Source: a virus. Taken from it: a DNA stretch of 43,165 nt. The notes below the pieces were generated by a model, which worked only from the letters and a program-made list of their open reading frames with translations, did no database searches and was not told where the DNA came from. Of this stretch, positions 5,233 through 41,621 are shown piece by piece. The stretch's first letter is position 1, and each line of letters begins with the position of its first letter. The translations under genes were made by a program, and so were the position numbers. The stretch covers positions 1-43,165 of the IMG/VR virus record IMGVR_UViG_3300025162_000084. One strand, written 5' to 3'.

Positions 5233-5478
5233 CTATTCGATTATGACGGCGGTATTCGGGGACTCTTTTGCCTTGGCCACGGCGGCGGCCCATTCAGCGG
5301 GCACGTTTGCCAGTTCGTACCAGCCAAGATACTTGAGCCCCGCGGTATTCGTATGCAATATGCCGCCCACGGCGGCGACGTTCTTGGTTACACACACGGC
5401 ACGCGGCCCGTTCGGGGAACCGTTCTCCCACGTGTGCCCCGTAAATACCCGTATCTTTTCACCCATTTTCACCTCCAA
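5233..5478 (-). CDS. Small hypothetical protein
   Basis: 81 residues with a beta-rich, Gly/Asn-containing first half and a helical second half (NVPAEWAAAVAKAKES). It has no recognised domain. It overlaps the end of the DUF6166 gene, so it is translated from the same message. Confidence 0.6.
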   Translation of the reverse strand: MEVKMGEKIRVFTGHTWENGSPNGPRAVCVTKNVAAVGGILHTNTAGLKYLGWYELANVPAEWAAAVAKAKESPNTAVIIE

Positions 5479-5944
5479 TCACAGGAGCCGCGGTAATCAT
5501 TTTTGAAAGTACCACAGATTTCACCCAGTCAAGTATCTGGGCCTTGGAAATCACCCAATGATGCCCCCAGCCAGCCACGGCGGCCTCTTTGAAGGCTTGA
5601 TGCAACTGTATGGCCAAGTCTTTGTCCCCCGTGGCGTCCAGTAGAAGGGCAAGGGCCAACTGGGCGGGCCCACTCCCCATGTAGCCCCATTGAAAGCCGT
5701 CAGGACTGTGATTAAACAACTTCTGGCTGGGGACGGGGCTCAATACAGCCCCGTCCGTGTCTGTTCTGAAAGCGGTGAGTTCAACTAAGGTTCCACCATC
5801 AATCACCTTGCGGGCAGCGGTTTCACTGGTCACGGCCTTGGCAACCATATCAGCCGTGACTTCAAACCGTTTCACTATTCGCGGCCCCGTAACCGTTTCA
5901 GGGGTCACGACACCTACGTACACAACGTCAATGATTTCAGTCAT
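5459..5944 (-). CDS. DUF6166-family protein
   Basis: The 161-residue protein carries the DUF6166 signature at about residues 75-125: LFNHSPDGFQWGYMGSGPAQLALALLLD, then GDKDLAIQLHQAFK and a closing WVISKAQILDWV. The family is common in phages and mobile elements but has no assigned biochemical function. The N-terminal 70 residues form a strand-rich extension that starts DVVYVGVVTPE, like other family members. It is coupled to genes on both sides by short overlaps. Confidence 0.75.
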   Translation of the reverse strand: MTEIIDVVYVGVVTPETVTGPRIVKRFEVTADMVAKAVTSETAARKVIDGGTLVELTAFRTDTDGAVLSPVPSQKLFNHSPDGFQWGYMGSGPAQLALALLLDATGDKDLAIQLHQAFKEAAVAGWGHHWVISKAQILDWVKSVVLSKMITAAPVIGGENG

Positions 5945-20520: not shown

Positions 20521-21516
20521 CTAGACTGGATTGGCCGCTGTGATGCCCGCGATATTAAAGTTGCCAGCCCAAACGTCATTCCCCGCACTAGCGGCATAGA
20601 GGGTCGCGCTGTACGTGCCCCCCAGCACGTTCCCCGTGACCATGTTTGAGTTAGAACTTGTACCTGAAAGGTCAATGGCTTTCTTGCTGCCTGCGGAGCC
20701 TGTGACCACGCCCATTGAATTATCAGCTTTGAGGCCGTTGGTCATGAAAACGTTGTCTTTAATCAGACACCCACGCCCATTGATATTGAGCCCTTCAACT
20801 GGGGCGTCAAAGTAGTTCCCTACAATTTCCCATGAGGAATATGACAGGCCGCCCGCCTCCACGCCCAGTATCGCAGAACCGTACACCGTGGTCACGTTGT
20901 TCATGTAGATAAACTGGTTGCGGTAGATTTTCACGTTGTCGCTGTCACACACTGGGGAATATATGGCTATGTATGAGCCCGTTTTCCCTTGGAACCGACA
21001 CCCGACAATCGTGGTATAACTGGCCCCGCCCAGCACGATAGCCGCGGGGGTTCCAGCCGAATATACGGGGGGCCTAAACTTGATATTGGCGACCAGCACG
21101 TCAGTCGAGTTGATGGTCAAGCATACGGCGTCAGTTGCAGCCGTCCATTGAGCTTGGTTAGGGCCTGTGCCGTCGCCAATAATTCTCAAGCCAGTTTGGG
21201 ACACGGCTATCACAACCGCCTCTGTGAAAGAACCGCGGATTACGATTGTGTCCCCTGCGACTGCCAAGGCCACAGCGGCGGCAATCGTTGAAAGGGCCGT
21301 GAGCCACGTCATGCCATCATTCCCGCTTACCCCGCTGGTAGAGCTTACGTAGTACGTCTTGCCGAATTGCGGGGGCCCGTTCAGGCTCGTGATGCCTTTC
21401 CCAGCCCCTAGGTATGTGAACACTTGCCCGCTGGCTATAAACATATCCCCAGCTATCAACGTGTCAGTTGTGACAGGCGGGGAAGTGAATACGCGCGGGG
21501 TTGTTGATTGTACCAT
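20521..21516 (-). CDS. Right-handed beta-helix protein, possible capsid decoration
   Basis: 331 residues. An N-terminal head (residues 1-50) is followed by a pectate-lyase-like right-handed beta-helix pattern: repeated short strands such as DTIVIRG, GLRIIGD, NIKFRP, TTIVGCRFQG, VKIYRNQF, WEIVGNYF, CLIKDNVF. Such folds bind or cleave polysaccharides in tailspikes. No catalytic residues could be assigned. The location, between major capsid and connector, is unusual for a tailspike and suggests a head-bound decoration or fibre. A 12-bp hairpin separates it from the capsid gene. Confidence 0.7.
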   Translation of the reverse strand: MVQSTTPRVFTSPPVTTDTLIAGDMFIASGQVFTYLGAGKGITSLNGPPQFGKTYYVSSTSGVSGNDGMTWLTALSTIAAAVALAVAGDTIVIRGSFTEAVVIAVSQTGLRIIGDGTGPNQAQWTAATDAVCLTINSTDVLVANIKFRPPVYSAGTPAAIVLGGASYTTIVGCRFQGKTGSYIAIYSPVCDSDNVKIYRNQFIYMNNVTTVYGSAILGVEAGGLSYSSWEIVGNYFDAPVEGLNINGRGCLIKDNVFMTNGLKADNSMGVVTGSAGSKKAIDLSGTSSNSNMVTGNVLGGTYSATLYAASAGNDVWAGNFNIAGITAANPV

Positions 21517-21583: not shown

Positions 21584-23038
21584 CTAGCTGGCAAGGCAGT
21601 TGGCGAACACGCCGCAGAGGGCGGGGAGATAGAGTTTGCAGGCCCCGATGCACGTTACGTCAACGGGCTGACTGCGGGCGGTCTGGGGCCGTTCAACGCC
21701 GAAGTAGTCAAGCTGCAACTCGACTTCAATGTTGTTCGGGACTTCCGCGTTCGGGTAGGGCACGTTTTCGCCCAAGAAAATCATCTTGCCCGCGGGGATA
21801 TGGCGGCTGACTACCAGTTCGATGTACTGGTTTGTGAACTGGTTAAAGTATTTCTTGACGCCTGCCCCCATCTTGAACCCTTCGCTTTCGCCCTTGTCAA
21901 TCATGACGCGGACGGTGTTGGTTGCAGAGGCTCCAAGAGTGAGCAGTTTCATGGTCGTGGCCTCTTGGCTGTTAATGAGGGCCATTGTCGGGCCAGCCCC
22001 CCAAGTGTTGAACATTGAGGCCAGCATGGTATCAATTTCCTTGATACCCCCCGCGCTGTCTGCGGTCATGGCAGCGTTTGACATATCCTTGTAGTACGCG
22101 CCCGCAGTCAGGGCTCCCGCGGCGGTAATCTGCTCAAGCAGGCCGCTGTACCCCAGCGTGTCGGCGGTCTGGTCGGCGGTATTGGTGACGTTGCCGCTGG
22201 TTTTGTTCAGTCCGACTACGGCCTTGTTCGTGGTAACGGTTCCCCAGTAGAACGGAGTGTCAGTTGCGTTTGTGGAAATGAACACGTTGTACGCGAACGC
22301 GGCTGGAATGTCAGTCCACGTCACGGTCAAGGCGTTGTATGAGCCACCTGGAGTCTGGTTGCTCAACTTTTTGGCGATTGTTTCATCGGGGCTGTCTGTC
22401 GTGCCGCCGCTGCGACCAGTCGCGCCATTCAAGTACCCTTGCAGAGTCAAGGCTGAAACGGCCACTGAATAGGCCGTCCCAGAGGTAAGCGTGCCGCCTG
22501 CAAGAGTTGAACCAGTTGCGGCGATTGTGGCTGCGGCCATAGCGGCATTCAGGCCCGTTTGGTTGCCGCCGATGATGTAGCGGTCTTCCTGAATCATGAG
22601 GTTCTGCAAGGCTGTGAGCATGGTCAACGCGGGCACGTCCTCAAAGCGGCGGCCCATGACCATAGCCTCTTGGGTGTATTCGTTGCTCATGGAGAGCGTC
22701 TTGTATGCCGCCGACTTGGGGGCGGTTGTCAGGGTGACGTTGCTATTGCGAACGCCCTCCGCTACGCCTGCCTTGACCCCAAGGCTATTGATAGCGGTTA
22801 TCTGTTTCCAGTGTGCGTCAGTCCCGCCTTGGGGGTTGACAAAGCGCGGTACGCGGCGGCGCATCTGGTCTTCCAGCGGGTACAGGCGTTTCGCAGGGGC
22901 CTCAAGAGGATAGCCAGTGAGGGCCGTGGTCGCAGCCGTGATGGACTTGGTATCGCCGCGCAGCGGGACTTTCCCCGCCTTGAGTATGCCGTTGGTAATG
23001 TCTATGGTTTCCTGTGTGACTTCGCCTAACCGAATCAT
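21584..23038 (-). CDS. Major capsid protein, HK97 fold with Ig-like insertion
   Basis: 484 residues. N-terminal RRRVPRFVNPQGGTDAHWKQITAIN and LSMSNEYTQEAMVMGRRFEDV fit the N-arm and E-loop/spine of HK97-type capsid proteins, and LASMFNTWGAGPTMALINSQEATTMK fits the A-domain. Residues about 175-295 form a Thr/Gly-rich beta-sandwich (TVTWTDIPAAFAYNVFISTNATD) like an Ig or FN3 module inserted in the fold, probably exposed on the surface. The C terminus contains several Cys residues (CIGACKLYLPALCGVFANC). AAGGAG precedes the start. The nearby protease supports capsid maturation by cleavage. Confidence 0.9.
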   Translation of the reverse strand: MIRLGEVTQETIDITNGILKAGKVPLRGDTKSITAATTALTGYPLEAPAKRLYPLEDQMRRRVPRFVNPQGGTDAHWKQITAINSLGVKAGVAEGVRNSNVTLTTAPKSAAYKTLSMSNEYTQEAMVMGRRFEDVPALTMLTALQNLMIQEDRYIIGGNQTGLNAAMAAATIAATGSTLAGGTLTSGTAYSVAVSALTLQGYLNGATGRSGGTTDSPDETIAKKLSNQTPGGSYNALTVTWTDIPAAFAYNVFISTNATDTPFYWGTVTTNKAVVGLNKTSGNVTNTADQTADTLGYSGLLEQITAAGALTAGAYYKDMSNAAMTADSAGGIKEIDTMLASMFNTWGAGPTMALINSQEATTMKLLTLGASATNTVRVMIDKGESEGFKMGAGVKKYFNQFTNQYIELVVSRHIPAGKMIFLGENVPYPNAEVPNNIEVELQLDYFGVERPQTARSQPVDVTCIGACKLYLPALCGVFANCLAS

Positions 23039-23077: not shown

Positions 23078-24538
23078 TTAACCGTCACGCGGAATGTAGC
23101 CGCGCACAGGGCGCGGGGGGCCAGACAGTATCTCATTGATTTCAGATACGGCCCCCTGCTCACTCAGCCATTTCTTAACGGCTGGGTCAGTGGCCTTGTC
23201 AATGAGGCTGCTCATGACTGCCTTTTCAGCACCTCCCTCTGTGGATTCAATGCGGGGGTTGGTTACGACTGTGGTATTAGGCGCGGGCTGCACGGAACGG
23301 AGTACGGGCCCCTTGGTCGCGGGCTGTCCTTCAAGCTGGCCAATCCGTGCCATCAACGGCTCAACCGCTGCCTTCACAGATTCTTTCAATGCCAGCGCGA
23401 AAGTGTCTGCCTGCCTATCCAAAAGACTTTTCACAGCGTCCACCGTGTTAAGTCCAGCGTCCATTGATTTCGCCGCGGGGAACGGTTTTTTCTCCTCTGG
23501 CTTGGGGGGTTCAGGGGCCGCAGGCGTAGCGGGCTCTTGAGCCACTTCTGGGGCCTTCGGGGCTGCGGGGGCCGCATTGGGCACAGCGGGCGGTTTCGGG
23601 GCTGATTGGGCGACTGGGGGTGGCTCATTGGCCTCTGGGGCCGCTTCCTCATTCTCCGCGAGTGTTTCCTGTTCAGGGGTTTCCACGGCGGGGAATATGT
23701 CAACAATGCTGTCGTGCAGGGCCCTCAATGCGGCCTGCACGGTCACAGGCAACTGCTCCGCGGTTATGGTTTCCTCTACCGCTGCGGGCGCGGGAGCCGC
23801 GGGCTCTACGGGGGACGCGGCGGCGGCGGCGGGTTCGGGGGGAGCCTTGGCTGCGGGCGGGGTTTGAGGCTTTTCCTCTGAAACTTTCCCGTTTGAGTCC
23901 TCTTTGCCTTCCAGCTTGGCCTCTGCCGCGCTTTCGGGTTCGTCGGCCTTGCCGTCAGTAGGTTTTACTTCTTTGATTGTCTTACTTTTCATTGATAATT
24001 TCGCTCCTTTTGAGTATATTCCCTTGAGTGTTGCTAATGACGCGCCTGCGTCTTCCAGTATCTTGACAGCTTTGTAGCTGGGTATGACGGCTGTGGGGTT
24101 CGCAGGCGTGGGCGTCACGGACGCCTCACACACGGGCCAGCATGAGATACGCCCGTCCAGTTCAACCGTCTTGAGGTGTGAGATTGCCCCGCTGGACAGC
24201 CTTGCCCCACCGCGCTTGATGATTCCAGCTACCGCCTGCGCGTATGAGTCTGCTAGGTTCAACTGGCCCTCTATCCAACGGCCCATTTCATCGTCCCACT
24301 TCTTGGTCACGCGACCAATTATGGCTGCCTTCACCTTTGAGTCGCGCCCGTGCTGGTAGAGAATGGGCAACTGCACGTCTTGGAACAGGTCGTCACGATA
24401 GTCTGTGTCCTTCGTGAAGTATTCCCCGTCAAAGTCCTTACCCTTGAGGGCCGCGATTCCACCGTTCGGGCAGAGCAGTCCGACAAAAGTGCCCTTCTCT
24501 ACGTCAATAAACTTTACCGCGTAGTCTGCGTTTTTCAT
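23078..24538 (-). CDS. Prohead protease fused to a scaffold-like domain
   Basis: 486 residues. Residues 1-150 fit a herpes-like prohead protease: LPILYQHGRD with His63, IIGRVTKKW, WIEGQL, GARLSSGAIS with a candidate Ser115/116, and WPVCEASVTPTPANPTAV. Residues about 190-360 are a Pro/Ala/Glu-rich unstructured region, and a helical end (VDAVKSLLDRQADTFALALKESVKAAVEPL) resembles a scaffold coiled coil. Fusion of protease and scaffold in one chain is known in some phages. It directly precedes the capsid gene. Confidence 0.82.
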   Translation of the reverse strand: MKNADYAVKFIDVEKGTFVGLLCPNGGIAALKGKDFDGEYFTKDTDYRDDLFQDVQLPILYQHGRDSKVKAAIIGRVTKKWDDEMGRWIEGQLNLADSYAQAVAGIIKRGGARLSSGAISHLKTVELDGRISCWPVCEASVTPTPANPTAVIPSYKAVKILEDAGASLATLKGIYSKGAKLSMKSKTIKEVKPTDGKADEPESAAEAKLEGKEDSNGKVSEEKPQTPPAAKAPPEPAAAAASPVEPAAPAPAAVEETITAEQLPVTVQAALRALHDSIVDIFPAVETPEQETLAENEEAAPEANEPPPVAQSAPKPPAVPNAAPAAPKAPEVAQEPATPAAPEPPKPEEKKPFPAAKSMDAGLNTVDAVKSLLDRQADTFALALKESVKAAVEPLMARIGQLEGQPATKGPVLRSVQPAPNTTVVTNPRIESTEGGAEKAVMSSLIDKATDPAVKKWLSEQGAVSEINEILSGPPRPVRGYIPRDG

Positions 24539-24840
24539 GTAGCCTCTGCCTCCAATATACTGATAAATGAAAACTTGTTCGTGAACACGCCCTTGCGCGT
24601 TATGTCGTCAGCCACTTGCTTGACCATGTACGTCCCCAGCACGGCGTTTGCCGCGGGATTGTAGTCGTACTTATATTCCCCCGTGGCCAATTTCGACATG
24701 GCCGCTGCAACGATTATGTCCGTGCCCGTGGGGTCAGTGATTGTTATGGTCACGCCGTTCGCGGGGTCAAAGAGGGCCCCCGTGCCCGTGTCGGTTATGT
24801 CTATTGAACACGTGACTGTCTGGGGTAAAAGTTTTCTCAT
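24535..24840 (-). CDS. Small beta-sandwich virion protein
   Basis: 101 residues with an Ig-like strand order (TVTCSIDITDTGTGALFDP, VTITITDPTG, then GEYKYDYNPAANAVLGTYMVKQVADD). It has no catalytic motif. Overlaps the protease gene and abuts the repeat protein gene, so it probably sits in the capsid or on the repeat fibre. Confidence 0.6.
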   Translation of the reverse strand: MRKLLPQTVTCSIDITDTGTGALFDPANGVTITITDPTGTDIIVAAAMSKLATGEYKYDYNPAANAVLGTYMVKQVADDITRKGVFTNKFSFISILEAEAT

Positions 24841-27344
24841 TAGCCACCTTCCACATCTGAATCAATCTTTATGGCGGGCCGCGCCTTGCTTGTACCATTT
24901 CCCAGAACCGTTATGTCACCGTCGCCTATAATCGTACCACACGGGCCCCCGTCCATTTCAAGGGCTGGGGAGAAAAAGTTTGCCCCGCGGAAATAGGTTG
25001 ACAGTGACCCCGCGCCTGCTATGTTCCCCGCCTTGGTCAAGTAGAACCGCGTGCCTATGTCCTTTAGGGCTATGAGTTCAAGGAAGAACCGCGTGGCTGC
25101 GTCACGCTGGCCAAGGCCGTTCAATGCGAACCGCAGGGCCGTGTTCTTATACCCCAGCACGCTCAACTTAAAGCGTGCAGCGGCGTCTTTGAACACCGTG
25201 GCTATCAAGACAAAGCGGGTCTGGGCTATGGCATAGTTGAGGGCCGTCAAGAGGTAACGTGAGCCAATATCCTTGAATTGCCGTGCATTGAGGCGGTAAC
25301 GTGCTGAAACGTCCTTGAATGCCCGCCCTACCAGCCCGAACCTTGCCCCTGCGTCTTTCCAGCCGCGGGCCTGCACGATAAACCGCGTGGCCGCGTTGCC
25401 ATAGTTACGGGCCCGTACTGCGAACCTTGCCGCGGCGTCCTTGAAACCACGTACGGCCATGCTGAAACGGGTCTGGATAAACTTGAAGCTCGTGGGGGCC
25501 GTAACCACGTAAAAGCGTGTGCCCGCGTCCTTGAACCCCTGAACGGCGGCCTTGAACCGTGTCGCAGCGTCTTTGTAGTTCTGGGCGTTGAGCCTAAAAC
25601 GGGCCGCCGTGTCCTTAAACGCTTGAACCGTTACCTTGAAACGTGTGCTTATGTCCTTCGTGACAGCCAAGCGGAAACGGGTTGCAATGTCTTTGTAGCC
25701 GCGTACCGTCAACTGGAACCGCGTTGAGGTGTCTTTGAACGCCCGTACAGTGACCTTAAAGCGAGTCTGGGCGTCCTTGTACGTCTGGGCTATGACCTTG
25801 TATCTTGTGGCTATGTCCTTGGCTACGGCCAGCCTGAACCGTGTTGATATATCCTTATACGTCTGAACCGTTACCTTGAAACGGGCCGCTGTGTCTTTGT
25901 AGCCCCGAACGGTCAGGGCGTACCGTGTCGCCGCGTCCTTATAGTTGCGAACAGCTGTCTTGAACCGCGTCGAAATGTCTTTATAGCTTTGGGCTGTGAG
26001 TTTGTAACGGCTGGTAACATCTTTGTAAGCCTGAACCGTCACCTTGAAACGAGTCTGCGTGTCCTTGTACGCCCGTACCCGCATGACGTAGCGTGTAGCC
26101 GCGTCCTTGAAGTTGCGGGCCGTCACCTTGAAACGAGTTTGGGCGTCCTTGTAGCCCTTTACCCGCATGAGGTACCGGGTAGCAACGTTCTTGAAGTTCT
26201 GGGCTGTCAGCTTGTATCTTGAGGCCGCGTCCTCATAGGCGCGCACGACTACGGCGTAGCGTGTGGCTATATCCTCATAGACCGATAACACATTCAGTTT
26301 GAAACGTGCAGTGGCGTCTTTGTTGCCTTGGCCTATCAACTTGAACCGCGTCACGGGTTGCAGGCCAACAAGGAAGCGCGTGGCCACGTCCTTTAATGCC
26401 TGTGTCACTGGCTGCGACAACTTGAACCGACTGGCTATATCCTTATAGCCAAGTGGCGTTATAACGCCTTCTACGCCTAATCCCCAAACATTATACGAAG
26501 GATATGAAAAAGCGTTCCCGTCTAAGTGGTTTGCGCCGTCGCTGCTCAACCATGATCCGGATGAGGCGATACCACTCCCGGTGATATAGCCCCCAGTCCC
26601 ATACATTGCCAAAGCATCGCCCGTTTTTATCGGGATTGAGAGCCCTGTAAATGTCTGCTTGCTGCCATTGGCGACGGTTCCAATACTTGCGGAGCCCCTG
26701 CTGGTAAATTGGTTTGAGTACCCGCCCTGAAAGACCGTCCCCGCAATTACCCCCGTCCCGTCCTGGTAATAACAATAAGCGGAGAACGATGATAAAATCC
26801 CGTCAGATTGCGCAGGGTTCCCTAGGTCAACTCTTGTCCCCCAGATTGATGAGTAGTAGTCCCACGTGGATAACGCGCCAGAGCCAACGGTGAGGCTGTC
26901 GGTGACACCCTTGGCTGTGAATTCCATTATGTTGTTATTGAACCCGCCAACGGATTGAGCCCCCATTCCCCACAATAGGCCGCCCATGTACCACTTCACC
27001 CCGTTGGTTCCACCCGCGGTTGCGATTGAAGGGCCAGCACCTCCGCCCGTATAGACGCCCAAACAGTCGCCAGCATTGACAGTGATGTTCAGCCCTGTGA
27101 AGGTTTGGGTGGTTGGGGAACCTGTAATGTTCCCGATGCCGATATAATCCCTGCCAGTGTAGGTTGACCCTGACCCATAGCAGGTTCCCACTGAAACGCC
27201 AGTAGCACTGGACTGAAAATTGAAGGAAATGGCTTTCAGCTTGCCGGAGGAAGGGGCTGGATAGTCAATTTCAATATAGGTGTAGCCGTAGGAGCCTGCC
27301 GTCGTATCATTAGGGTGAGGATAGCCAATCTGTAAGACACTCAC
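24840..27344 (-). CDS. Giant 14-residue-repeat virion protein with two beta-sandwich head domains
   Basis: 834 residues. Residues about 1-150 and 150-290 are two related beta-sandwich domains (compare QTFTGLNITVNAGDCLGVYTGG and QTFTGLSIPIKTGDALAMYGTG), resembling carbohydrate-binding or fibre-head modules. Residues about 297-770 comprise some 34 tandem copies of a 14-residue unit, consensus YKDxxTRFxxxVxx, with aromatic residues seven apart. A compact C-terminal region (about 771-834) follows. The protein resembles a long fibre or stalk. It lies between the minor head genes and the protease, so a head fibre or neck fibre is likely. The two N-terminal domains lie in a segment of different composition, suggesting they were acquired later. 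No known family recognised for the repeat. Confidence 0.8.
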   Translation of the reverse strand: MSVLQIGYPHPNDTTAGSYGYTYIEIDYPAPSSGKLKAISFNFQSSATGVSVGTCYGSGSTYTGRDYIGIGNITGSPTTQTFTGLNITVNAGDCLGVYTGGGAGPSIATAGGTNGVKWYMGGLLWGMGAQSVGGFNNNIMEFTAKGVTDSLTVGSGALSTWDYYSSIWGTRVDLGNPAQSDGILSSFSAYCYYQDGTGVIAGTVFQGGYSNQFTSRGSASIGTVANGSKQTFTGLSIPIKTGDALAMYGTGGYITGSGIASSGSWLSSDGANHLDGNAFSYPSYNVWGLGVEGVITPLGYKDIASRFKLSQPVTQALKDVATRFLVGLQPVTRFKLIGQGNKDATARFKLNVLSVYEDIATRYAVVVRAYEDAASRYKLTAQNFKNVATRYLMRVKGYKDAQTRFKVTARNFKDAATRYVMRVRAYKDTQTRFKVTVQAYKDVTSRYKLTAQSYKDISTRFKTAVRNYKDAATRYALTVRGYKDTAARFKVTVQTYKDISTRFRLAVAKDIATRYKVIAQTYKDAQTRFKVTVRAFKDTSTRFQLTVRGYKDIATRFRLAVTKDISTRFKVTVQAFKDTAARFRLNAQNYKDAATRFKAAVQGFKDAGTRFYVVTAPTSFKFIQTRFSMAVRGFKDAAARFAVRARNYGNAATRFIVQARGWKDAGARFGLVGRAFKDVSARYRLNARQFKDIGSRYLLTALNYAIAQTRFVLIATVFKDAAARFKLSVLGYKNTALRFALNGLGQRDAATRFFLELIALKDIGTRFYLTKAGNIAGAGSLSTYFRGANFFSPALEMDGGPCGTIIGDGDITVLGNGTSKARPAIKIDSDVEGG
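25030..26460 (-). repeat. Array of about 34 degenerate 42-bp coding repeats
   Basis: Each unit encodes 14 residues, for example AYKDVTSRYKLTAQ or GFKDAAARFAVRAR. The DNA copies have diverged while the protein pattern is kept, so selection acts on the protein. Two units are one residue short (AVAKDIATRY, AVTKDISTRF) and some near the ends have small insertions. Confidence 0.9.
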
Positions 27345-27799
27345 GATGACACCTGGATAGTCTGGGAAGTTATCGTGTTGACAGTGGCATTACACTGGGC
27401 AAGCGTGCCGTTGCCAGCCTTAAAAGGGACGGGGGTGTAGCCTGTTTCAATGGGTTGATTGCCAGCCCATACCGCGTAGAAACCGGCCAGCCTTGCTTTC
27501 ATGAGATTGATAAGGCTCAAGGCGTTGGCCCCAACCGTGACATACTCAAAATGGTTATTGAACGGGACGTCAATCGCTTTTGTGGGTAGAGTCTCCAGCC
27601 AAGCCTGAAAATCACTTGGGTCAGAGGGATTGCCCTGGCCGTCAACCGGGCCTGAATATACTTGCCCCGTTGTATCGGGAACGGTTACGTGGCACTCATT
27701 GTACCTAGCGTCAGACGGGTTCAAGAACATAGACATTCGCACTTGTATTTTGCCCTGGTACGCGCAGACCCCAGAGTTTTCAATCACAGCGTATGGCAT
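27341..27799 (-). CDS. Hypothetical virion-associated protein
   Basis: 152 residues without a recognised domain; strand-rich N terminus, then a helical stretch (ALSLINLMKARLAGFYAVW). It overlaps the repeat protein gene by four bases and lies within the segment proposed to have been inserted (26461-27805), so it may have arrived together with the new head domains, perhaps as a chaperone or partner. Confidence 0.6.
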   Translation of the reverse strand: MPYAVIENSGVCAYQGKIQVRMSMFLNPSDARYNECHVTVPDTTGQVYSGPVDGQGNPSDPSDFQAWLETLPTKAIDVPFNNHFEYVTVGANALSLINLMKARLAGFYAVWAGNQPIETGYTPVPFKAGNGTLAQCNATVNTITSQTIQVSS

Positions 27800-27805
27800 A
27801 TTCCC

Positions 27806-28600
27806 TCACACATCACAATACCCCTGCACAGCCAACTTGAACCGCATGCTAGTGTCTTTGTACGCGGTAACAGGGACGGCTACCTTGAATCGAGCCGCCG
27901 CGTTTTTGTAACTCTGCCCCAATAACTGGAACCGCGTGGCCATATCATCGTAAAAAGATCCCTTGAGGCCAATGGCCCACGTAGCCCAGTCAAGGGTTGC
28001 GCTTGACTTGGTATCTGTGGACGTTAGAGCCGCGCCACCAGAGTTGTCGCTGTACTCCTGTATGGCCGCGCTGACAGCTTTCAAACTTGATGAGCCAGCT
28101 AGGGCACGCGTGCTATCACGCTGGGTACGGTTGAGCGTGATTGTGATCGAGCCCGATGCGTTTGCAGACTGGGCCACTCCCACGCCGCAGATAAGCATAC
28201 GGCCAGCAGTACCCGCAGCGGGCGTCACGGTTGAGGTCGTAGGGCTTGAGCCCGTGTTGTTACCAGTTGCTACGTTCTCAAACGCCTTTGACGCCCCTGT
28301 GTAACTCACCGCGTTCCATGATACCCTAGTCCCCGACGCGAAGCCGACGCTGACCGATTCATTCGCGGCGGAGGCTTGGTAAATGTACCAAGCCTCTGCC
28401 GAATTATTGGTGCTATAACTCACCTTTGAGCCCGTGATGTAGGTTGCAGCCACTCCGCCCACGGTCACGGCGTTCGGGGAAGTCGTGCCTATATAAGTGA
28501 TGTTTATGACTATAACCACGTTGGCCGCGTGGTTCAGGCTGCCCGTTGTGGGCGTGGTCGTGCCCGTGGCCCCGATTGCCGCATTATAGGCGATAGCCAT
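27806..28600 (-). CDS. Beta-sandwich virion protein with three terminal 14-residue repeats
   Basis: 264 residues. Residues about 1-215 are a Thr/Ser/Gly-rich beta-sandwich (VVIVINITYIGTTSPNAVTVGG and later WATWAIGLKGSF). The C-terminal 45 residues contain the same repeat as the next large protein: DMATRFQLLGQSYKNAAARFKVAV and AYKDTSMRFKLAVQGYCDV, stopping in the middle of a unit. It looks like the head and first repeats of a former longer protein whose repeat stalk is now joined to other head domains downstream. Structural role likely. Confidence 0.7.
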   Translation of the reverse strand: MAIAYNAAIGATGTTTPTTGSLNHAANVVIVINITYIGTTSPNAVTVGGVAATYITGSKVSYSTNNSAEAWYIYQASAANESVSVGFASGTRVSWNAVSYTGASKAFENVATGNNTGSSPTTSTVTPAAGTAGRMLICGVGVAQSANASGSITITLNRTQRDSTRALAGSSSLKAVSAAIQEYSDNSGGAALTSTDTKSSATLDWATWAIGLKGSFYDDMATRFQLLGQSYKNAAARFKVAVPVTAYKDTSMRFKLAVQGYCDV

Positions 28601-28616: not shown

Positions 28617-29105
28617 CTAGCCAGATGTTTTGTCGAACCCGTGAATACCCTGCACGGCCAAGTTCAGGCGGCCGATGTTTTGATACTTGAAGTCGAACAC
28701 GTTGTCTTTGAAACTTTCAAGTGCCCCTGTGGCCGTGTTCCAAGCGTGGCACTCACAGGAACCGTCCTGTGAGATAATGCTGCCTATTATCTGCGCGCTG
28801 CAACTGCGCCCACTTCCCCCGCCGCCCATCCCCACAAACTGGAAACCCACTTTCAACTGAAAGAACGGGGGCTTGTCCAGTTCACCCGCCATACCGTTAG
28901 GACAGAGCAGCCGCAGCCCAGCCAGTAACTTCTTGTCAAGTTCTTCCCAGCGTGAGGTTTTCACGTGGGCCAACGGGAGCAAGATAGGCGCGTGTTCGAA
29001 GGTGTCCCACTCTGCTACTATCTTGCCGCCGTAGTAACGGGCCTCCCACCAAGCGCGCCCGCTGCGCTTAATCATCATGATTTCAAACTTTGACGGCATT
29101 TTCAC
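28617..29105 (-). CDS. Hypothetical virion-associated protein with one degenerate repeat
   Basis: 162 residues. A CECHAWN cluster and a GMGGGGSGRSC loop lie in the middle. Near the C terminus YQNIGRLNLAVQG resembles one unit of the 14-residue repeat (YKDIATRFKLAVQG) with one residue missing. The first part (RAWWEARYYGGKIVAEWDTFEHAP) is strand-forming. No family recognised; association with the repeat proteins is suggested by gene order and the shared motif. Confidence 0.6.
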   Translation of the reverse strand: MKMPSKFEIMMIKRSGRAWWEARYYGGKIVAEWDTFEHAPILLPLAHVKTSRWEELDKKLLAGLRLLCPNGMAGELDKPPFFQLKVGFQFVGMGGGGSGRSCSAQIIGSIISQDGSCECHAWNTATGALESFKDNVFDFKYQNIGRLNLAVQGIHGFDKTSG

Positions 29106-29122: not shown

Positions 29123-29911
29123 TTAAGTCCAAGTGTATTTCAAGGTCATGACCACGGTGTACGTACTGGGGGTCATGTTCGGCCCAGTGAACAGGGCAAA
29201 GTGACAGGCAATCGAACCCGCTGTCGTGGCTGTGGGGGTCGCAGCGAAAGTGATGTAGTTCGTATCGCCCTGTAAGGCTTGAAAGTTTGCTATCCAGTTC
29301 GCGCCCGCTGTGGGGTTGACTGAACCGCCCGTGCCGCTGGTAACCGTGGGAGCGTTGCTCGGGCCTGCGGCGGGGTCTGCCGTTGCCGTGACTTGCCCGT
29401 AGAGGTTGCCCTTGAGGTATGAGTAGCTGGACGTGTCCGTAGCATGGCCGCCCAATAGCGACCCGTCACCGCCCGTAATGGCTCCATGAGCCGTTGTGGG
29501 GTACGCCGTGAATATGGGCGCGCTGGCGAACGTGCCGTCATTCGTCCAGTTCCACCTTGCCCAGCGATAGTTGTCCTTGGAATAGGTCGGGCACGCGCCG
29601 CCGTTTGCATACAGGCCGTCACCCGTGGCGTCAGCCGTGTACGCGTACGTGTAGTTCACTTGGCTGGTTGCCGCGGGTCGTATCATGGCGGGCCAAGACG
29701 TAGACGCTATGTTCTTTTGGGACGCGCTATCTGACCACCTGACCTCTGTGTTTGCCCCGCCGATTGCTTGGTATGCTGGGGAACCCGTGGTCGCGTTATT
29801 GCACTCAAGTTTGATTGTTCCAAAGTCTGCGTTCAGTACCCCCATGAGGTACAGGGGCCCAAGGAATATCGCCTTGAGCAGTAGCCGTGTGACCGTGAAT
29901 GCCTTTTTCAT
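29123..29911 (-). CDS. Beta-rich virion protein with hydrophobic N terminus
   Basis: 262 residues. A basic start and hydrophobic stretch (MKKAFTVTRLLLKAIFLGPLYLMGV) is followed by a long Thr/Ala/Gly-rich region of strands, ending STYTVVMTLKYTWT. The N terminus may be a membrane or packing segment rather than a signal peptide. The start at 29911 is preferred because GGAGAAC precedes that ATG. Its position just after the Mu F-like protein suggests a head or neck structural role. Confidence 0.6.
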   Translation of the reverse strand: MKKAFTVTRLLLKAIFLGPLYLMGVLNADFGTIKLECNNATTGSPAYQAIGGANTEVRWSDSASQKNIASTSWPAMIRPAATSQVNYTYAYTADATGDGLYANGGACPTYSKDNYRWARWNWTNDGTFASAPIFTAYPTTAHGAITGGDGSLLGGHATDTSSYSYLKGNLYGQVTATADPAAGPSNAPTVTSGTGGSVNPTAGANWIANFQALQGDTNYITFAATPTATTAGSIACHFALFTGPNMTPSTYTVVMTLKYTWT

Positions 29912-29935
29912 GTGTCTGTTCTCCTTCAACTAAAA

Positions 29936-30195: not shown

Positions 30196-30888
30196 CTAGA
30201 TATTCACGTTAGGTCTAGCGTACCCGCTGGGGCTGCCTTGCCTGTACTGGTTCGCCGTACGGTTACGGGCGGCGATTGCTTGGTCTATGACGCTGCCAAG
30301 GTTCTCAAAGACTTGTTCACTCGTCCCTGCGCGGTAGTTTGGCAGCGGTCCCACAAGAGCCTCACTGGGCACGCCTACATCAAAGTGAGCAGGGCAACGA
30401 CAATGGGGGTGAATGGTCGCCGCGATTTCATAGGCGTCTTTGGCATTGAACCAGCGGCCAGCAAGGTAGAGGCACTTCTTACAAACCTTCGCGTCCTCTG
30501 CGGTCAGCCATATTACCCCTATGTCGCTGGGGTCAAGGTTTTCGGCACGGGCTATAATGGCGCGGCTTGCGTCCACCCCCGCCGCAATCCCCACGGCTGT
30601 CGCAGGGGACAGGGCCCACGTCCAGAGGTTCTCATTTATGAGCCCCACGGCCTGCTCCACCGTGGCCCCTTGCCCGATTTTAAGTTCAAGGGCTGCCATA
30701 GCCCTCTGCAATTCCTTGGCATGGCGTGAGAGCAGTATCTCAAGATTGGCATTGTCACGCTCCCCCCATGCAAGTATCTGGCCGTATCGCTTGAGGATTT
30801 TATCGCGTCCTAGAGCGTAGGCTCTCGGGATATACTGGGTCGCAAGTCGTTGCATACTCACGGCCAAGTCTGCGAGAGCAGGGTTCAT
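30196..30888 (-). CDS. Mu gpF/SPP1 gp7-like head morphogenesis protein
   Basis: 230 residues. A helical N-terminal part is followed by the family signature: WLTAEDAKVCKKCLYLAGRWF and IHPHCRCPAHFDV (about residues 128-172), with the CxxC and HPHCRC residues in place. Such proteins bind the portal and travel into the capsid. It starts inside the last codons of the portal gene (four-base overlap), which is the standard order. Confidence 0.85.
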   Translation of the reverse strand: MNPALADLAVSMQRLATQYIPRAYALGRDKILKRYGQILAWGERDNANLEILLSRHAKELQRAMAALELKIGQGATVEQAVGLINENLWTWALSPATAVGIAAGVDASRAIIARAENLDPSDIGVIWLTAEDAKVCKKCLYLAGRWFNAKDAYEIAATIHPHCRCPAHFDVGVPSEALVGPLPNYRAGTSEQVFENLGSVIDQAIAARNRTANQYRQGSPSGYARPNVNI

Positions 30889-32669
30889 TCAGCACCTCCC
30901 GCTGCGGCATGCTTGGCTTGAGCCTTCGCCTCTGCCAGCACCTTGCCGTATTCTTCCATGAGCTTGTTCAAGCTATCGCCCACGGGGGGCGTACGCCTGC
31001 GGGTGAGATTGGTACGAGCCGTATCAAAAACTGATTTCACGGCCTCTACCGTGGGAGCCAAGGTAAGGGCTGTCGTGACTTCCTTAACCGTTTCAGCGGG
31101 CAAGGCGTGGGGCTCAAACTGCCTCACACTTTGTCGCCCGATACGCTTGGTCGTGAAACGCTCCCAAGCCTCTAGTTCACTTTTCTGGGCCTTCAACGAC
31201 AACTGGTATTCAGATGGCAGCCGTTCGTCAGTTGGCTCCTCTAGGCTCAATTCGAAGTCATCTGGCCGTTTGGGCACGTTGTTCGGGGCACTAGGAGCCG
31301 AATTCAGCCCCGCATTCGCTTGGAACGTGCCATTGACCACACTCGCAAGGGGGACAGGGCCGCCGCCCGTCCAGACCATAGGCATAGCCCCTATACCATC
31401 AGGCAACGGGGGCTGTCCACGGAGTTTTCTCCAGTCGTCTATCGTCATGGCCCCGTGTTCAACCATGTTTTGATTCATGGTCGCGTCAGCCAGCTTGTAA
31501 TGCAACTGCCCGCTTGTCCAAGTAAACTCAAGGAAATGCGCGTTGAGGTCGTCTGCCAGCACGCTGTCATTGAGGTTCTTGATATGCTGCATCATGGGGA
31601 CAAGGCTTTCCTCTGTGGCCGCCTCCTCTACCGTTTCGGCCGTGCCGCGGTTCATCATTCGAACGTATGGCGCAGGGCTGCACCCGAAACGGGCGCAGAC
31701 GATACGGGCCAACCATTCATCGAACAGAGCGTCAAACGTGAGTTGCTGCAACTGCTGGACGGTTCCGCTTGATGGAACCATTTGGATTTTTGACCGCTGG
31801 CCAAGGTCTCCAGACAGTAGCGTGTCAAACTGGTTCTGGAACTTGATAATCTGCTCTGCCGTCCACGTGTCGGGTGAGGGCATGATACCGTATGGCACGT
31901 TACCCGTGCGGAAGTATTCAAGGAAACTCTGGGCCCGCCGCAAGGCTATATTAACCGTGATTATTACGTCCTCAACGTGGCTGTGGCCGTACACGCCGTT
32001 CGTGCGGACGTTGTACGGGGCGTATAACAATTCCTTGCGGCTGTACCATGTTCGCGGGAGCCCTTTGATAATCTGGCTATACGCTGCGGGCTCACACCAC
32101 TGACCCGTTGCTTGGTTGAACACGGGGTCAACGGGGATACGCCCCCTGTCGTCCACCAAGACAAGCATCGTGGCCCCGTCCACTGGGTCAAGGCTCAAGA
32201 GGCGGCCCAGCCTGTCTTTTCGTCTGAATATGGTAACGGCGTCAATAACGAACAAGTCCTCAAGAATCATGCCGAGCCACTGGTCAAACGTGTGTTCCCC
32301 GTCGGGTTTCTTAAAGAATTGCGTGGCCGCCTTGACCTGTCCATCGAAGTCAAGATGGGCGTATTCAGGCTTGACCGTAATCGCCCACTCCAAGCCCTTC
32401 ATTTCGTCCTTGCGCTTCTCAATGACCGTACGCAGCACGTCATATCCGTCAGCCAAGGCACGCATCTGGGCATAAGTGACGCTGCGGCTTTCAGCGGCCC
32501 GCGGCGTCTGTAAGAGGTTGCGGCCTACCATGTAGTCAGTTTCGCGGATAGGCTCAAGAGGGGCCTGCGGGCGTAACGGTTCACTGGGCCCAAACTGCAC
32601 GCTTGAGGGTTTCCATGCGTCAATCCCCGCTTTCACTGAACCCTGCAACCGTGTAAAAAGATTAGCCAT
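30885..32669 (-). CDS. Portal protein
   Basis: About 594 residues, starting MANLFTRLQG; GAGGAG lies eight bases upstream of this ATG at 32669, and an earlier in-frame start at 32717 would overlap terminase deeply. Motifs along the chain (YDVLRTVIEKRKDEMKGLEW, TRLSLDPVDG-like LLSLDPVDGATM, LPRTWYSRKELLYAPYN, QMVPSSGTVQQLQ) match phage portal proteins. The dodecameric ring is the DNA gate and site of terminase docking. It overlaps the large terminase by eight bases and is followed by the Mu F-like gene. Confidence 0.9.
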   Translation of the reverse strand: MANLFTRLQGSVKAGIDAWKPSSVQFGPSEPLRPQAPLEPIRETDYMVGRNLLQTPRAAESRSVTYAQMRALADGYDVLRTVIEKRKDEMKGLEWAITVKPEYAHLDFDGQVKAATQFFKKPDGEHTFDQWLGMILEDLFVIDAVTIFRRKDRLGRLLSLDPVDGATMLVLVDDRGRIPVDPVFNQATGQWCEPAAYSQIIKGLPRTWYSRKELLYAPYNVRTNGVYGHSHVEDVIITVNIALRRAQSFLEYFRTGNVPYGIMPSPDTWTAEQIIKFQNQFDTLLSGDLGQRSKIQMVPSSGTVQQLQQLTFDALFDEWLARIVCARFGCSPAPYVRMMNRGTAETVEEAATEESLVPMMQHIKNLNDSVLADDLNAHFLEFTWTSGQLHYKLADATMNQNMVEHGAMTIDDWRKLRGQPPLPDGIGAMPMVWTGGGPVPLASVVNGTFQANAGLNSAPSAPNNVPKRPDDFELSLEEPTDERLPSEYQLSLKAQKSELEAWERFTTKRIGRQSVRQFEPHALPAETVKEVTTALTLAPTVEAVKSVFDTARTNLTRRRTPPVGDSLNKLMEEYGKVLAEAKAQAKHAAAGGAE

Positions 32670-34032
32670 TCTCATTTCTCCTCTGTATGATTGCTGCGGC
32701 TGCACGCTCCCAGTCATTGAACGTGCTGCCGTTCAGCATCCCGAACGCCCCGCTTGCCGCGTCAACTTGGTCGTCATGCCCGCCTTCGGGGAATATCTCA
32801 AGCTCGTCAAGAAACTCGCCAATCCAAGGGCCCTTGACCAGTTTCACGTTGCCTGCCTCAACTTGTGAGGACAGGGGGCGGGCCCGCGTGGCCTTGTCCC
32901 CCATCACCTTGTCTGGATAGAAGGCATAGCCAGCCAAGACGTTTCTCCTGTAATTGTCAATCGAGTTTATGCCGCCCGACCCGCCCTCTTGCTCCATGTA
33001 GATTGAGGTTGCCTTGCCGTCAATGGCCGCCGTTTGTGATACCAGTGACTCAACGCTCAATGGGCTCATGCGGCCCCGTTTTACGTCACAGATATAATAT
33101 ACCCCGTCACTTGTTTTGGCCATCTTAACGCCGCAAGTGTAGTCTGGGTCAGTGTTGGCCTTGGGGGCCGTCGCTGCCAAGTCCCAGTACCTAACCACTG
33201 TCGCCGTGCGCGGGTATTCGTCAACGATTTCAAACCACTCACGTTTGAACATCCCCCCAGACACACGGGCAGACCAGTCCCCGTTGAGTAGCTGGGCCCG
33301 CGTAACCGCGTCAAGGTTCATCAATGACTTGCGGTATTCATCTGCGTCCAGATACGGGTTGTCTGCCAGCCCTGCGGGGATGAACGGGCGGCCCTGCGTG
33401 GGCCCTTCTACGATAAAGCGTTGTTTCACCCAGCCGTGCCCAACATTCCCAGGGTTCGACGCCGCACGAATACGCAGGGGAACGTGCCCCAGTTGAGCCG
33501 TTTCTTGACACGTGGTACACGCTTCATTGAACCCTTCCCTATGGTCAGGGCACAGCGTACGGCGTAGGCGGCTGAACAGATAGCGGTATTGATACTCATT
33601 GAATTGGGTGAGTTCATCGAACCCCACGTATTGAAAGGCGGCCCCTTGATATAGGTCACAGTCCTTGTCGTACTGCAAGAACCCAAACGTGAGCGTGGCC
33701 CCGTTCGGGAAGTACCACGTTTTCTCACTGTCGCGCCACTTTGCGTCAGTATTGACCAGCCACTCACGGGCCCTGTGCATAAGAGCCTCTGGTAGAATTA
33801 GCGCGCTGAACGTACGCCGTAAGAGCAGGGCGCGGAAGTGAGGCACGTCCACGTATTGCAGGGCCCCCATGAGCAAGCCGTCTGACTTGCCCCCGCCCGC
33901 AGCCCCACCGTACAGGGCCTCACGGGTATCGCACATGAGAAAGGCGGCCTGCTTGCCCGTGGGGACGTGAGGTATGTACGGGGTGAGCTTGAGGCCGTCT
34001 ATCTTCCGTAACCGTTCAATGGCATCTGTCAT
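32662..34032 (-). CDS. terL: Terminase large subunit
   Basis: 456 residues. ATPase domain: Walker A at 42-50 (GGAAGGGKS) and Walker B at about 135-140 (YVGFDE), with a coupling segment (LQYDKDCDLYQG) between. Nuclease domain: DLAAT near residue 285 and GGHDDQVDAASGAFG near 430 supply the acidic residues of the RNase H-like fold. The enzyme cuts concatemeric DNA and pumps it into the prohead. It follows the small subunit by one base. Whether packaging is cos or headful cannot be decided from the sequence. Confidence 0.93.
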   Translation of the reverse strand: MTDAIERLRKIDGLKLTPYIPHVPTGKQAAFLMCDTREALYGGAAGGGKSDGLLMGALQYVDVPHFRALLLRRTFSALILPEALMHRAREWLVNTDAKWRDSEKTWYFPNGATLTFGFLQYDKDCDLYQGAAFQYVGFDELTQFNEYQYRYLFSRLRRTLCPDHREGFNEACTTCQETAQLGHVPLRIRAASNPGNVGHGWVKQRFIVEGPTQGRPFIPAGLADNPYLDADEYRKSLMNLDAVTRAQLLNGDWSARVSGGMFKREWFEIVDEYPRTATVVRYWDLAATAPKANTDPDYTCGVKMAKTSDGVYYICDVKRGRMSPLSVESLVSQTAAIDGKATSIYMEQEGGSGGINSIDNYRRNVLAGYAFYPDKVMGDKATRARPLSSQVEAGNVKLVKGPWIGEFLDELEIFPEGGHDDQVDAASGAFGMLNGSTFNDWERAAAAIIQRRNENG

Positions 34033-40389: not shown

Positions 40390-40782
40390 TCATTTCAAGT
40401 TTGCCCTCCACTTCTTCGCGGCGTTCTGGGCGTTCTCACCCACGCCGTCTTTGAGATAACAGTACTTCTTTTGAACCAGCCAGCGACGGGCGCGGCTGAT
40501 TAAGTCCATGGACGGGGCCGTGCCCAGCCACTTCTTGAAGGCCCCGCAATCAAGCGGAAATTGCAGGCGGTTGATTATCAACCAGTATTTCAAGGCCAGT
40601 TCACGGTCAAGTTGTGTAGCCGTCTTATATTCCCAGCCCGTCCCAGCTACGCCCACCTCAAGGCAGACGGTCATGATGTACTCTGCAACCAGCCGTAGTT
40701 CTTTCGGGGCCTCTTGCAAGCGGAATTGGTGAGGGGCAAACGGGTCACGCACGTACCGTTCTTTTTCAAGGTTGTTAAACAT
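40390..40782 (-). CDS. Hypothetical helical protein
   Basis: 130 residues with no recognised family. Mostly helical (PKELRLVAEYIMTVCLEVG, ISRARRWLVQKKYCYLKD), basic C terminus. Overlaps the DUF5131 gene by eight bases. It may be nucleic-acid binding. Confidence 0.6.
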   Translation of the reverse strand: MFNNLEKERYVRDPFAPHQFRLQEAPKELRLVAEYIMTVCLEVGVAGTGWEYKTATQLDRELALKYWLIINRLQFPLDCGAFKKWLGTAPSMDLISRARRWLVQKKYCYLKDGVGENAQNAAKKWRANLK

Positions 40783-41563
40783 TCCACGGCCTCTGCTGCC
40801 TAAACTTTATCCCGTTGCCGAACGTGCCTGCCAGATTATGCTTGAGCCATACCTTCGCCCCAGCCTTGTCAGCGGCCTCAATTATGCTCAAGACGCCTTC
40901 TACGGGCGGGCTCAAGGCCCACTTCTTGGAGTACGGTTCAACGTGCCCGTAGCCGTACTCCCCCAAGAGGCACGTCATATCCGCTTGCCTCCCCGTGGCC
41001 GCCCCTATCACGACCCAGCCTATGCCAGCCATCTTAAGGCCAGATTCAAGTACAAGGGGCCCGTACGGGGGTTCAAGCACGGGCTCCCATGACAGCCACT
41101 TGCCGCCCGCTTTGACATCACCCAGCGCGACAGTGGCGATTTCAAACTGGGCCCGTGTATTGACACTCACGCCCACGTAGGCGTTCCTAGGGAAAGGCTC
41201 CCACTTGGCCAAGTCAGCGGGCCGCTTTGTCAGGAATAGGTAACGGGTCAACGGCGTGGCCGCCATCACGGCCCACATAAGCTGTCGCAGGCTTGCGCGC
41301 TCTTGGAGCATAGGGGTTTCAGGGGCAAAAGTGAACAATTCCCCAGTGAAGGCCGCGCCGATTGTCGCGCCAAGACCGCGGGCGACCAGCGGGGCGTCTA
41401 TATTGGCAGGGTGTACGGCGGGCTCAAAACTCTTGCCGAACCGTTTGGCCTGTGCAGCGGCCCAGCACGGCAAGCCACACAGGCCCTCACGTCTATTATT
41501 GCAGCCCGTCACGATTGGCCAGTTATAGTCCAGATACTCAATCTTGCTTTTCGTCAATGGCAT
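40775..41563 (-). CDS. DUF5131 (phage Gp37/Gp68-like) protein
   Basis: 262 residues from ATG at 41563 (GGGAGG five bases upstream). It begins with KIEYLDYNWPIVTGCNN, then CGLPCWA (the family Cys group, CxxxCWA type), and continues with RYLFLTKRPADLAKW and YVGVSVNTRAQFE, all standard for DUF5131. The family is common in phages and is thought to be related to radical-SAM-like folds, but the reaction is unknown. A related Cys pattern appears in the protein at 36887-37660. Confidence 0.85.
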   Translation of the reverse strand: MPLTKSKIEYLDYNWPIVTGCNNRREGLCGLPCWAAAQAKRFGKSFEPAVHPANIDAPLVARGLGATIGAAFTGELFTFAPETPMLQERASLRQLMWAVMAATPLTRYLFLTKRPADLAKWEPFPRNAYVGVSVNTRAQFEIATVALGDVKAGGKWLSWEPVLEPPYGPLVLESGLKMAGIGWVVIGAATGRQADMTCLLGEYGYGHVEPYSKKWALSPPVEGVLSIIEAADKAGAKVWLKHNLAGTFGNGIKFRQQRPWNV

Positions 41564-41621
41564 TATATCCTCCCTTCTCATAGTATTCGCGCATTACTGA
41601 ATCCATTGTAATTTCTTCCAT
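41538..41621 (-). CDS. 27-residue soluble peptide ahead of DUF5131
   Basis: An ATG at 41621 directly follows the upstream TAG, with GAGGGGAAG placed as a Shine-Dalgarno site. The peptide is charged (MEEITMDSVMREYYEKGG and on) and ends inside the start of the DUF5131 gene. It may be a true small protein or a leader that couples translation. Confidence 0.45.
   Translation of the reverse strand: MEEITMDSVMREYYEKGGYNAIDEKQD

Follow-up and report, generated by a model that had tools for sequence, protein, structure and literature searches.

What a virus would build from a long array of short, basic repeats, and what such a structure would do, is the question raised by viral contig IMGVR_UViG_3300025162_000084, analyzed here over its full length of 43,165 nucleotides (the window). 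A minus-strand open reading frame at 24840..27344 encodes an 834-residue repeat protein. The gene is embedded in a tight operon and overlaps both neighboring genes by a few bases, with its GTG start overlapping the stop codon of the gene at 27341-27799 (GTGA) and its TAA stop overlapping the ATG of the gene at 24535-24840 (TAATG).

The repeat protein and its 14-residue units

Sequence comparison delineates two N-terminal globular domains, domain 1 at residues 1-150 (26895..27344, minus strand) and domain 2 at residues 151-297 (26454..26894, minus strand), which share 36% identity across 95 residues; this whole N-terminal part is acidic, with a pI of 4.6. The repeat array follows at residues 300-773 (25026..26447, minus strand), and the protein ends in a tail, residues 774-834 (24843..25025, minus strand), for which we found no relative. 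The array was mapped with a position-specific scoring matrix (PSSM) for the unit, trained iteratively on all relatives and then run over the 834-residue protein. It comprises 31 full 14-residue units, two of 12 residues and one of 10 residues, about 34 in total, while composition-matched shuffles of the same protein yield a mean of 0.12 units and at most two. Start-to-start spacings are 14 residues in 24 of 30 cases, 26 in two, and 24, 16, 15 and 17 once each; a spacing of 26 reflects an intervening 12-residue unit, and that of 24 a 10-residue partial unit.

The unit consensus is [YFW][KR]D[AI][AS][TA]R[FY][KR][LV]T[VA][RQ]G. Across 151 units from nine open reading frames, Arg occupies position 7 in 99%, Phe or Tyr position 8 in 92%, Leu or Val position 10 in 90%, Tyr, Phe or Trp position 1 in 88% and Asp position 3 in 87%. 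Positions 2-3 read Lys-Asp, and Gly, Ala and Asn are frequent at position 14. At the DNA level, the window units show a mean pairwise identity of only 51% (maximum 79%), with pS at 0.75, near saturation, and pN at 0.41; Arg7 is nevertheless present in all 31 scored units, spelled by five codons (CGG, CGT, CGC, AGG and AGA). Because the DNA has diverged this far, synonymous sites are nearly saturated and Arg7 stays constant despite its varied codons, the substitution pattern indicates that the array is kept by purifying selection on the protein, without recent DNA duplication. A first-pass annotation of the locus had described about 34 copies of a 14-residue repeat, spanning some 475 residues, with diverged DNA, a preserved protein sequence and regular aromatic residues. 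All of this agrees with the mapped array, whose aromatics stand seven residues apart at positions 1 and 8 in the present register (2 and 9 in the earlier one).

Relatives of the repeat protein

The first-pass annotation recognized no named family, and we likewise obtained no credible sequence match to the repeat protein in Pfam, PHROGs or the PDB. The best Pfam match scores 19.9 bits, below the cut-off of 27.4, and the best PHROG match has an E value of 5e-4 across 17 residues, with no passing stretch; both fit repeat and composition noise. Matches to the RNA polymerase II CTD, vimentin, KELK and similar sequences were rejected as compositional. Pattern scans for DxxTRF arrays, covering IMG/VR and 84,980 species genomes, identified relatives on five other IMG/VR contigs, namely L012 (97 kb, G003), L029 (G004), L030 (35 kb, G005), L036 (G002) and L124 (G006), and on one Dehalococcoidales MAG contig, L120 (G001:C173). 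All six of these distinct relatives match the window array with E values from 1e-56 to 2.5e-18. Two further records, L003 and L013, match the window at 99.995% identity across 18.3 kb; they come from one and the same virus and were discounted as independent evidence. The number of units varies, as had been anticipated, from about 34 in the window to 27 in L012, 19 full plus 2 short in L030b (one of the repeat proteins of G005) and 10 in L120.

L120 is the only true relative among 84 genome-contig pattern matches, most of which are DNA tandem repeats, many of them cyanobacterial, in frames without a related protein. No further carrier was found in 400 genomes of the L120 phylum and 101 of its relatives, and a plasmid search for the family returned no match. 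Since the survey of that phylum gave no other carrier, the family is, on this sampling, linked to phages and rare within the searched collections. The sole match among phage records is a tail protein of Aeromonas phage 13AC503A (OQ622094, WGH28364), which also ends in an array of 14-residue period with spaced aromatics (L004:10001-11074, plus strand; APYGLTAGYLPDLV). That array, however, follows another consensus without the invariant Arg, lies within a 1488-residue tail protein and shows 22% aligned identity. We judge it analogous, and it probably arose independently by convergence.

A cassette shared by dissimilar genomes

The 834-residue protein belongs to a cassette consisting of a 268-residue protein, a 162-residue protein and one or two repeat proteins. 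When all window proteins are compared with the records of the relatives, the best conserved are the three genes upstream of the 834-residue gene, ahead of portal and terminase. The best conserved partner is the 268-residue protein (29123..29929, minus strand), with identities of 85% in G005, about 61-64% in G003, 59% in L036 and 59% in G001:C173; its annotated TTG start extends it by some 30 residues with no counterpart in the aligned relatives. The 162-residue protein (28617..29105, minus strand), identified by cross-record protein comparison, is 93% identical in G005, 46-47% in G003 and G001:C173, and 39% in L036. Between it and the 834-residue gene, the PSSM scan and protein comparison reveal a second repeat protein that the first-pass annotation had not included: a 264-residue protein (27806..28600, minus strand) with a globular domain and three C-terminal units (27821..27952, minus strand), 74% identical to its G005 homolog overall and 87% in the globular domain. 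A 152-residue gene (27341..27799, minus strand) separates the two repeat genes. On the other side of the 834-residue gene lies a small 101-residue protein (24535..24840, minus strand) with a weak match to MG2 (Ig-like) and weak similarity to the segment that follows the repeats in L124.

A profile scan of IMG/VR with the family of the 268-residue protein returned exactly four contigs, all of which carry repeats and one of which is the window's own virus; in the MAG contig, too, the 268-residue protein adjoins the repeats. L029 and L124 begin inside the repeat gene and so cannot be scored for this co-occurrence. The carriers of the 268-residue protein are otherwise dissimilar genomes, and none of the 50,697 phage records searched matches the cassette partners. 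The contrast is sharpest between the window and the 35-kb phage G005, where the partners share 74-93% protein identity and about 77-80% DNA identity while, outside partners and repeats, the other window proteins show at most 42% identity or no match; the cassette has therefore been transferred as a unit.

Within the cassette, the repeat proteins are mosaic. Compared with its window counterpart, the large repeat protein of G005 has an unrelated N-terminal part and becomes similar again in the repeats, and the 152-residue gene is missing at the corresponding place; the alignment shows a domain replaced where the array begins. More generally, the large repeat proteins of the relatives have N-terminal domains with no relationship to one another and repeats that are about 33-52% identical: the N-terminal part of L012, some 580 residues, is unrelated, and in L036 seven units are followed by a different domain of about 390 residues and then by further units. 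A conserved shaft has thus spread horizontally with exchanged globular domains, the arrangement that marks receptor-binding or tail-fiber cassettes.

All of the arrays are basic (pI 9.7-11.9, net charge +1.0 to +2.2 per unit), that of the 834-residue protein having a pI of 10.9 with 98 Lys and Arg to 31 Asp and Glu. The globular parts are acidic (pI 4.5-5.8) in the 834-residue protein, L012, L030b and L120, and basic in L036, the 264-residue window protein and L030a. Neither the strongly basic rod nor a transferable cassette with swapped N-terminal domains had formed part of the first-pass reading.

Predicted fold of the repeat units

Mean hydropathy over positions 4-13 of the unit runs +2.1, +0.1, +0.3, -4.5, +2.3, -0.6, +3.7, -0.3, +2.6 and -2.0, with the even positions 4-12 hydrophobic and β propensity highest at these core positions. 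Variant units are mostly 12 or 16 residues long, two fewer or two more than the standard. Since hydropathy alternates and length changes mostly by two residues, each unit looks like one β-strand followed by a turn. The exact spacing of seven residues between Tyr1 and Phe8 would also suit an α-helical coiled-coil stalk with the aromatics as its heptad core, but we regard this arrangement as highly improbable: it conflicts with the strict hydrophobic/polar alternation at positions 4-13, the Gly/Asn-rich position 14 and the peaks of β propensity, length changes of mostly two residues would break the heptads, and neither unbroken heptads nor, in either AlphaFold2 (AF2) model, a helix was found.

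An AF2 model of 11 units places a strand at positions 5-14 of each (pLDDT 57, pTM 0.49), and a second, longer run also gives one strand per unit (pLDDT 40); most of the repeat sequences are common to both runs, which are therefore not independent. Both models are low-confidence two-strand β-solenoids resembling SufB/SufD. The first-pass annotation had proposed a β-solenoid or a helical stalk; the in/out pattern and, at low confidence, these models favor the former and disfavor the latter. In VIA-align comparisons of the first model with the PDB, SufB/SufD β-helices rank at the top by a clear margin (Z 14.4-15.9, rmsd 1.4-2.1 Å over about 152 residues), the best match superposing 152 of 154 residues at Z 15.9 and 1.4 Å for a model with a pLDDT of 57; the second model gives the same ranking at Z 14.6-16.9, its top match (Z 16.9) having an rmsd of 3.1 Å over 216 residues. 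The modeled units thus superpose on the flattened, right-handed core with two strands per turn found in SufB and SufD (PDB 5awg, 1vh4, 4dn7 and 9h78; Z 15-17). The solved proteins differ in sequence (9-13% identity), role (Fe-S cluster assembly) and gene context, which is unrelated, and the fold is shared in a low-confidence model only. A phmmer search of the PDB for a sequence relation to the solved SufB/SufD chains gave only the RNA polymerase II CTD and other compositional matches.

The next VIA-align entry after SufB/SufD is CsgA, at an rmsd of 8.8 Å. Curli and FapC functional amyloids resemble the array in having short β repeats with two strands per coil and gave weak Foldseek matches, but their repeats are longer and of other composition, and the FapC match (E 0.025) has an rmsd of 13 Å. 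We set aside the FapC, CsgA and BFVD structure matches for their high rmsd or weak E values.

Two strands per turn, as in SufB/SufD, would correspond to 28 residues of the present units, and a 28-residue super-period is seen weakly (p=0.015 for the window array, p=0.19 for all arrays). AF2 is reported to turn over 40% of random perfect repeats into β-solenoids, although all methods are reported to agree on several natural solenoid families whose repeats have diverged (PMC11795689). The present repeats, too, are diverged. The low monomer confidence could also mean that the units fold only as a trimer, as a β-prism or triple β-spiral shaft, and that the monomeric solenoid is wrong. Phage fibers are usually trimers, and the one-sided hydrophobic pattern of the strand would suit a trimer core equally. 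Against this stand the close match of the AF2 models to a known monomeric β-helix and the repeat geometry. The triple β-spiral of adenovirus and reovirus fibers has a 15-residue repeat with two strands and a buried Gly/Pro turn, compared with a period of 14 and, in monomer AF2, one predicted strand per unit here. We consider a trimeric shaft unlikely, though a serious alternative. The N-terminal domains gave no fold in AF2, where pLDDT stayed near 30, and no carbohydrate-binding family matches them.

Genomic setting of the cassette

Pfam and PHROGs matches place the window cassette in the order terminase (32662-34032), portal (30885-32717), MuF-like (30196-30888), cassette, protease-like (23078-24538), a 484-residue probable capsid protein (21584-23038; matching phrog_13692, of unknown function), a gene with a weak tail-fiber match, adaptor, Neck1 and tape measure. 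The gene with the weak tail-fiber PHROG match encodes a 331-residue protein (20521-21516, minus strand) between the capsid and adaptor genes, a second possible fiber or decoration gene in the head region. In L029 and L036, genes judged by eye to be connector-like directly follow the repeat gene.

The setting differs in two other genomes. G005 has the order major tail, tape measure, tail protein, tail-fiber-like protein and cassette, followed by small Ig-like and membrane-like proteins and a papain-family peptidase. In G003, a small NlpC-like gene (by eye), a tail-tip protein (Phage-tail_3) and an LVIVD β-propeller spike precede the cassette, and the genes after it lie on the other strand. Given the head/connector setting in the window, L036 and L029 as against the tail-tip setting in G005 and G003, the cassette, judged by gene order, occupies two kinds of slot, and where the tail genes are clear this is the tail-fiber slot, the usual place of host-recognition genes.

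This distribution bears on where the product would reside. The first-pass annotation called the protein a virion-region product and suggested a fiber on the capsid or neck. The surrounding portal, MuF-like, protease/capsid-like, adaptor and neck genes agree with the first statement, and the product is a putative virion component; the second fits the gene order of the window but not the same cassette directly after tail-tip genes in G005 and G003. A head or neck fiber, decoration or whisker-like structure on the capsid or collar of the window virus would accord with a cassette lying between MuF-like and protease/capsid genes, with the connector-like genes directly after the repeat gene in L036 and L029 and with the carbohydrate-binding neck modules that bind hosts in the 936 lactococcal phages (PMC6669499). 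Operon position is weak evidence for virion position, and with the tail-tip neighbors in G005 and G003 we hold such a location to be doubtful, if worth weighing. The capsid genes around the window cassette and the basic charge of all arrays (pI about 10-12) could instead indicate an internal head protein, a polycationic rod that binds genome DNA in the capsid or is ejected with it; the unrelated globular domains of the cassette in different phages and its tail-fiber slot in G005 and G003 make this very unlikely.

Two neighbors of the cassette merit description. The G003 spike-like protein directly before it (L139:8313-12137, plus strand) has 1274 residues and LVIVD β-propeller repeats (Pfam E 1e-34). 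The G005 cysteine protease (Peptidase_C1, papain family; L137:4490-5290, plus strand) lies about 1.6 kb downstream, is unusual in a phage and may be a candidate lysis or envelope-degrading enzyme.

Proposed role and comparison with known systems

We propose, at slightly better than even confidence, that the locus is a horizontally transferred phage adhesion cassette whose product is a virion-surface appendage with exchangeable binding domains on a basic β rod. Virion-surface adhesion is favored because a conserved shaft, exchanged terminal domains, co-occurring partners, transfer and a tail-fiber slot match adhesion modules. The 268-residue, 162-residue and one or two repeat proteins would together form the appendage; the first two, which have no known relatives, would serve in attachment, as their co-occurrence suggests. 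The exchangeable N-terminal domain of each repeat protein, carried on a rigid rod of 14-residue units, would bind cell-surface glycans, its carbohydrate-binding nature being conjecture. In each unit, a strand at positions 4-13 would point even residues inward and odd residues outward, followed by a Tyr-Lys-Asp turn; two units would probably make one coil of a flattened β-helix, so that about 34 units would stack into roughly 17 coils with a length near 8 nm. Outward Arg and Lys columns would make the rod polycationic. Such stacked columns would, reasonably, be stable facing polyanions, and for this reason the rod may also bind acidic cell-envelope polymers. Against the adhesion reading are the head/connector setting of the gene in the window (and, judging by position, also in L036 and L029), the G001:C173 element, in which no virion gene was recognized, and N-terminal domains that match no carbohydrate-binding family; for the rod, the counterarguments are the low AF2 confidence of both models, which are not independent, the solenoid bias of AF2 and the weak super-period.

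We know of no 14-residue array or counterpart of the 268- and 162-residue partners in the 936 lactococcal phages. These phages carry carbohydrate-binding modules on neck passage structures and on evolved Dit and major tail proteins, exchanged as bricks, and such modules, which raise host binding from several virion sites, are the closest described behavior (PMC6669499). Binding is shown for the 936 modules, whereas for the present cassette it is proposed.

What is new here is the repeat itself and its charge. A bolder and rather unlikely extension is that the cassette encodes a new class of viral surface polymer, a polycationic β-solenoid with an invariant Arg column, mobile between head/neck and tail-fiber slots, with a rod that would itself grip acidic envelope polymers and swapped N-terminal domains that would confer added specificity. 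The repeat family, which lacks a credible Pfam, PHROGs or PDB match, belongs to a defined gene module that moves between dissimilar phages and has no fixed position in their late operons. Should the module serve adhesion, it would offer a handle on host recognition by phages of uncultivated bacteria, and the modular basic β rod could serve as a scaffold.

The hosts are perhaps Chloroflexota, judged from the single MAG contig. This 44-kb element (G001:C173; L120, L144, L145 and L147) encodes an integrase and ThiF-family, Kelch-like and carboxypeptidase-regulatory proteins in addition to the cassette; no portal, terminase, tail or other virion gene was recognized among the proteins tested, and it is possibly an unusual virus or a phage-plasmid. 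Two non-structural window genes (40775-41581 and 5459-5944, both minus strand) are 31% and 57% identical to genes on the same contig, a weak hint of related hosts.
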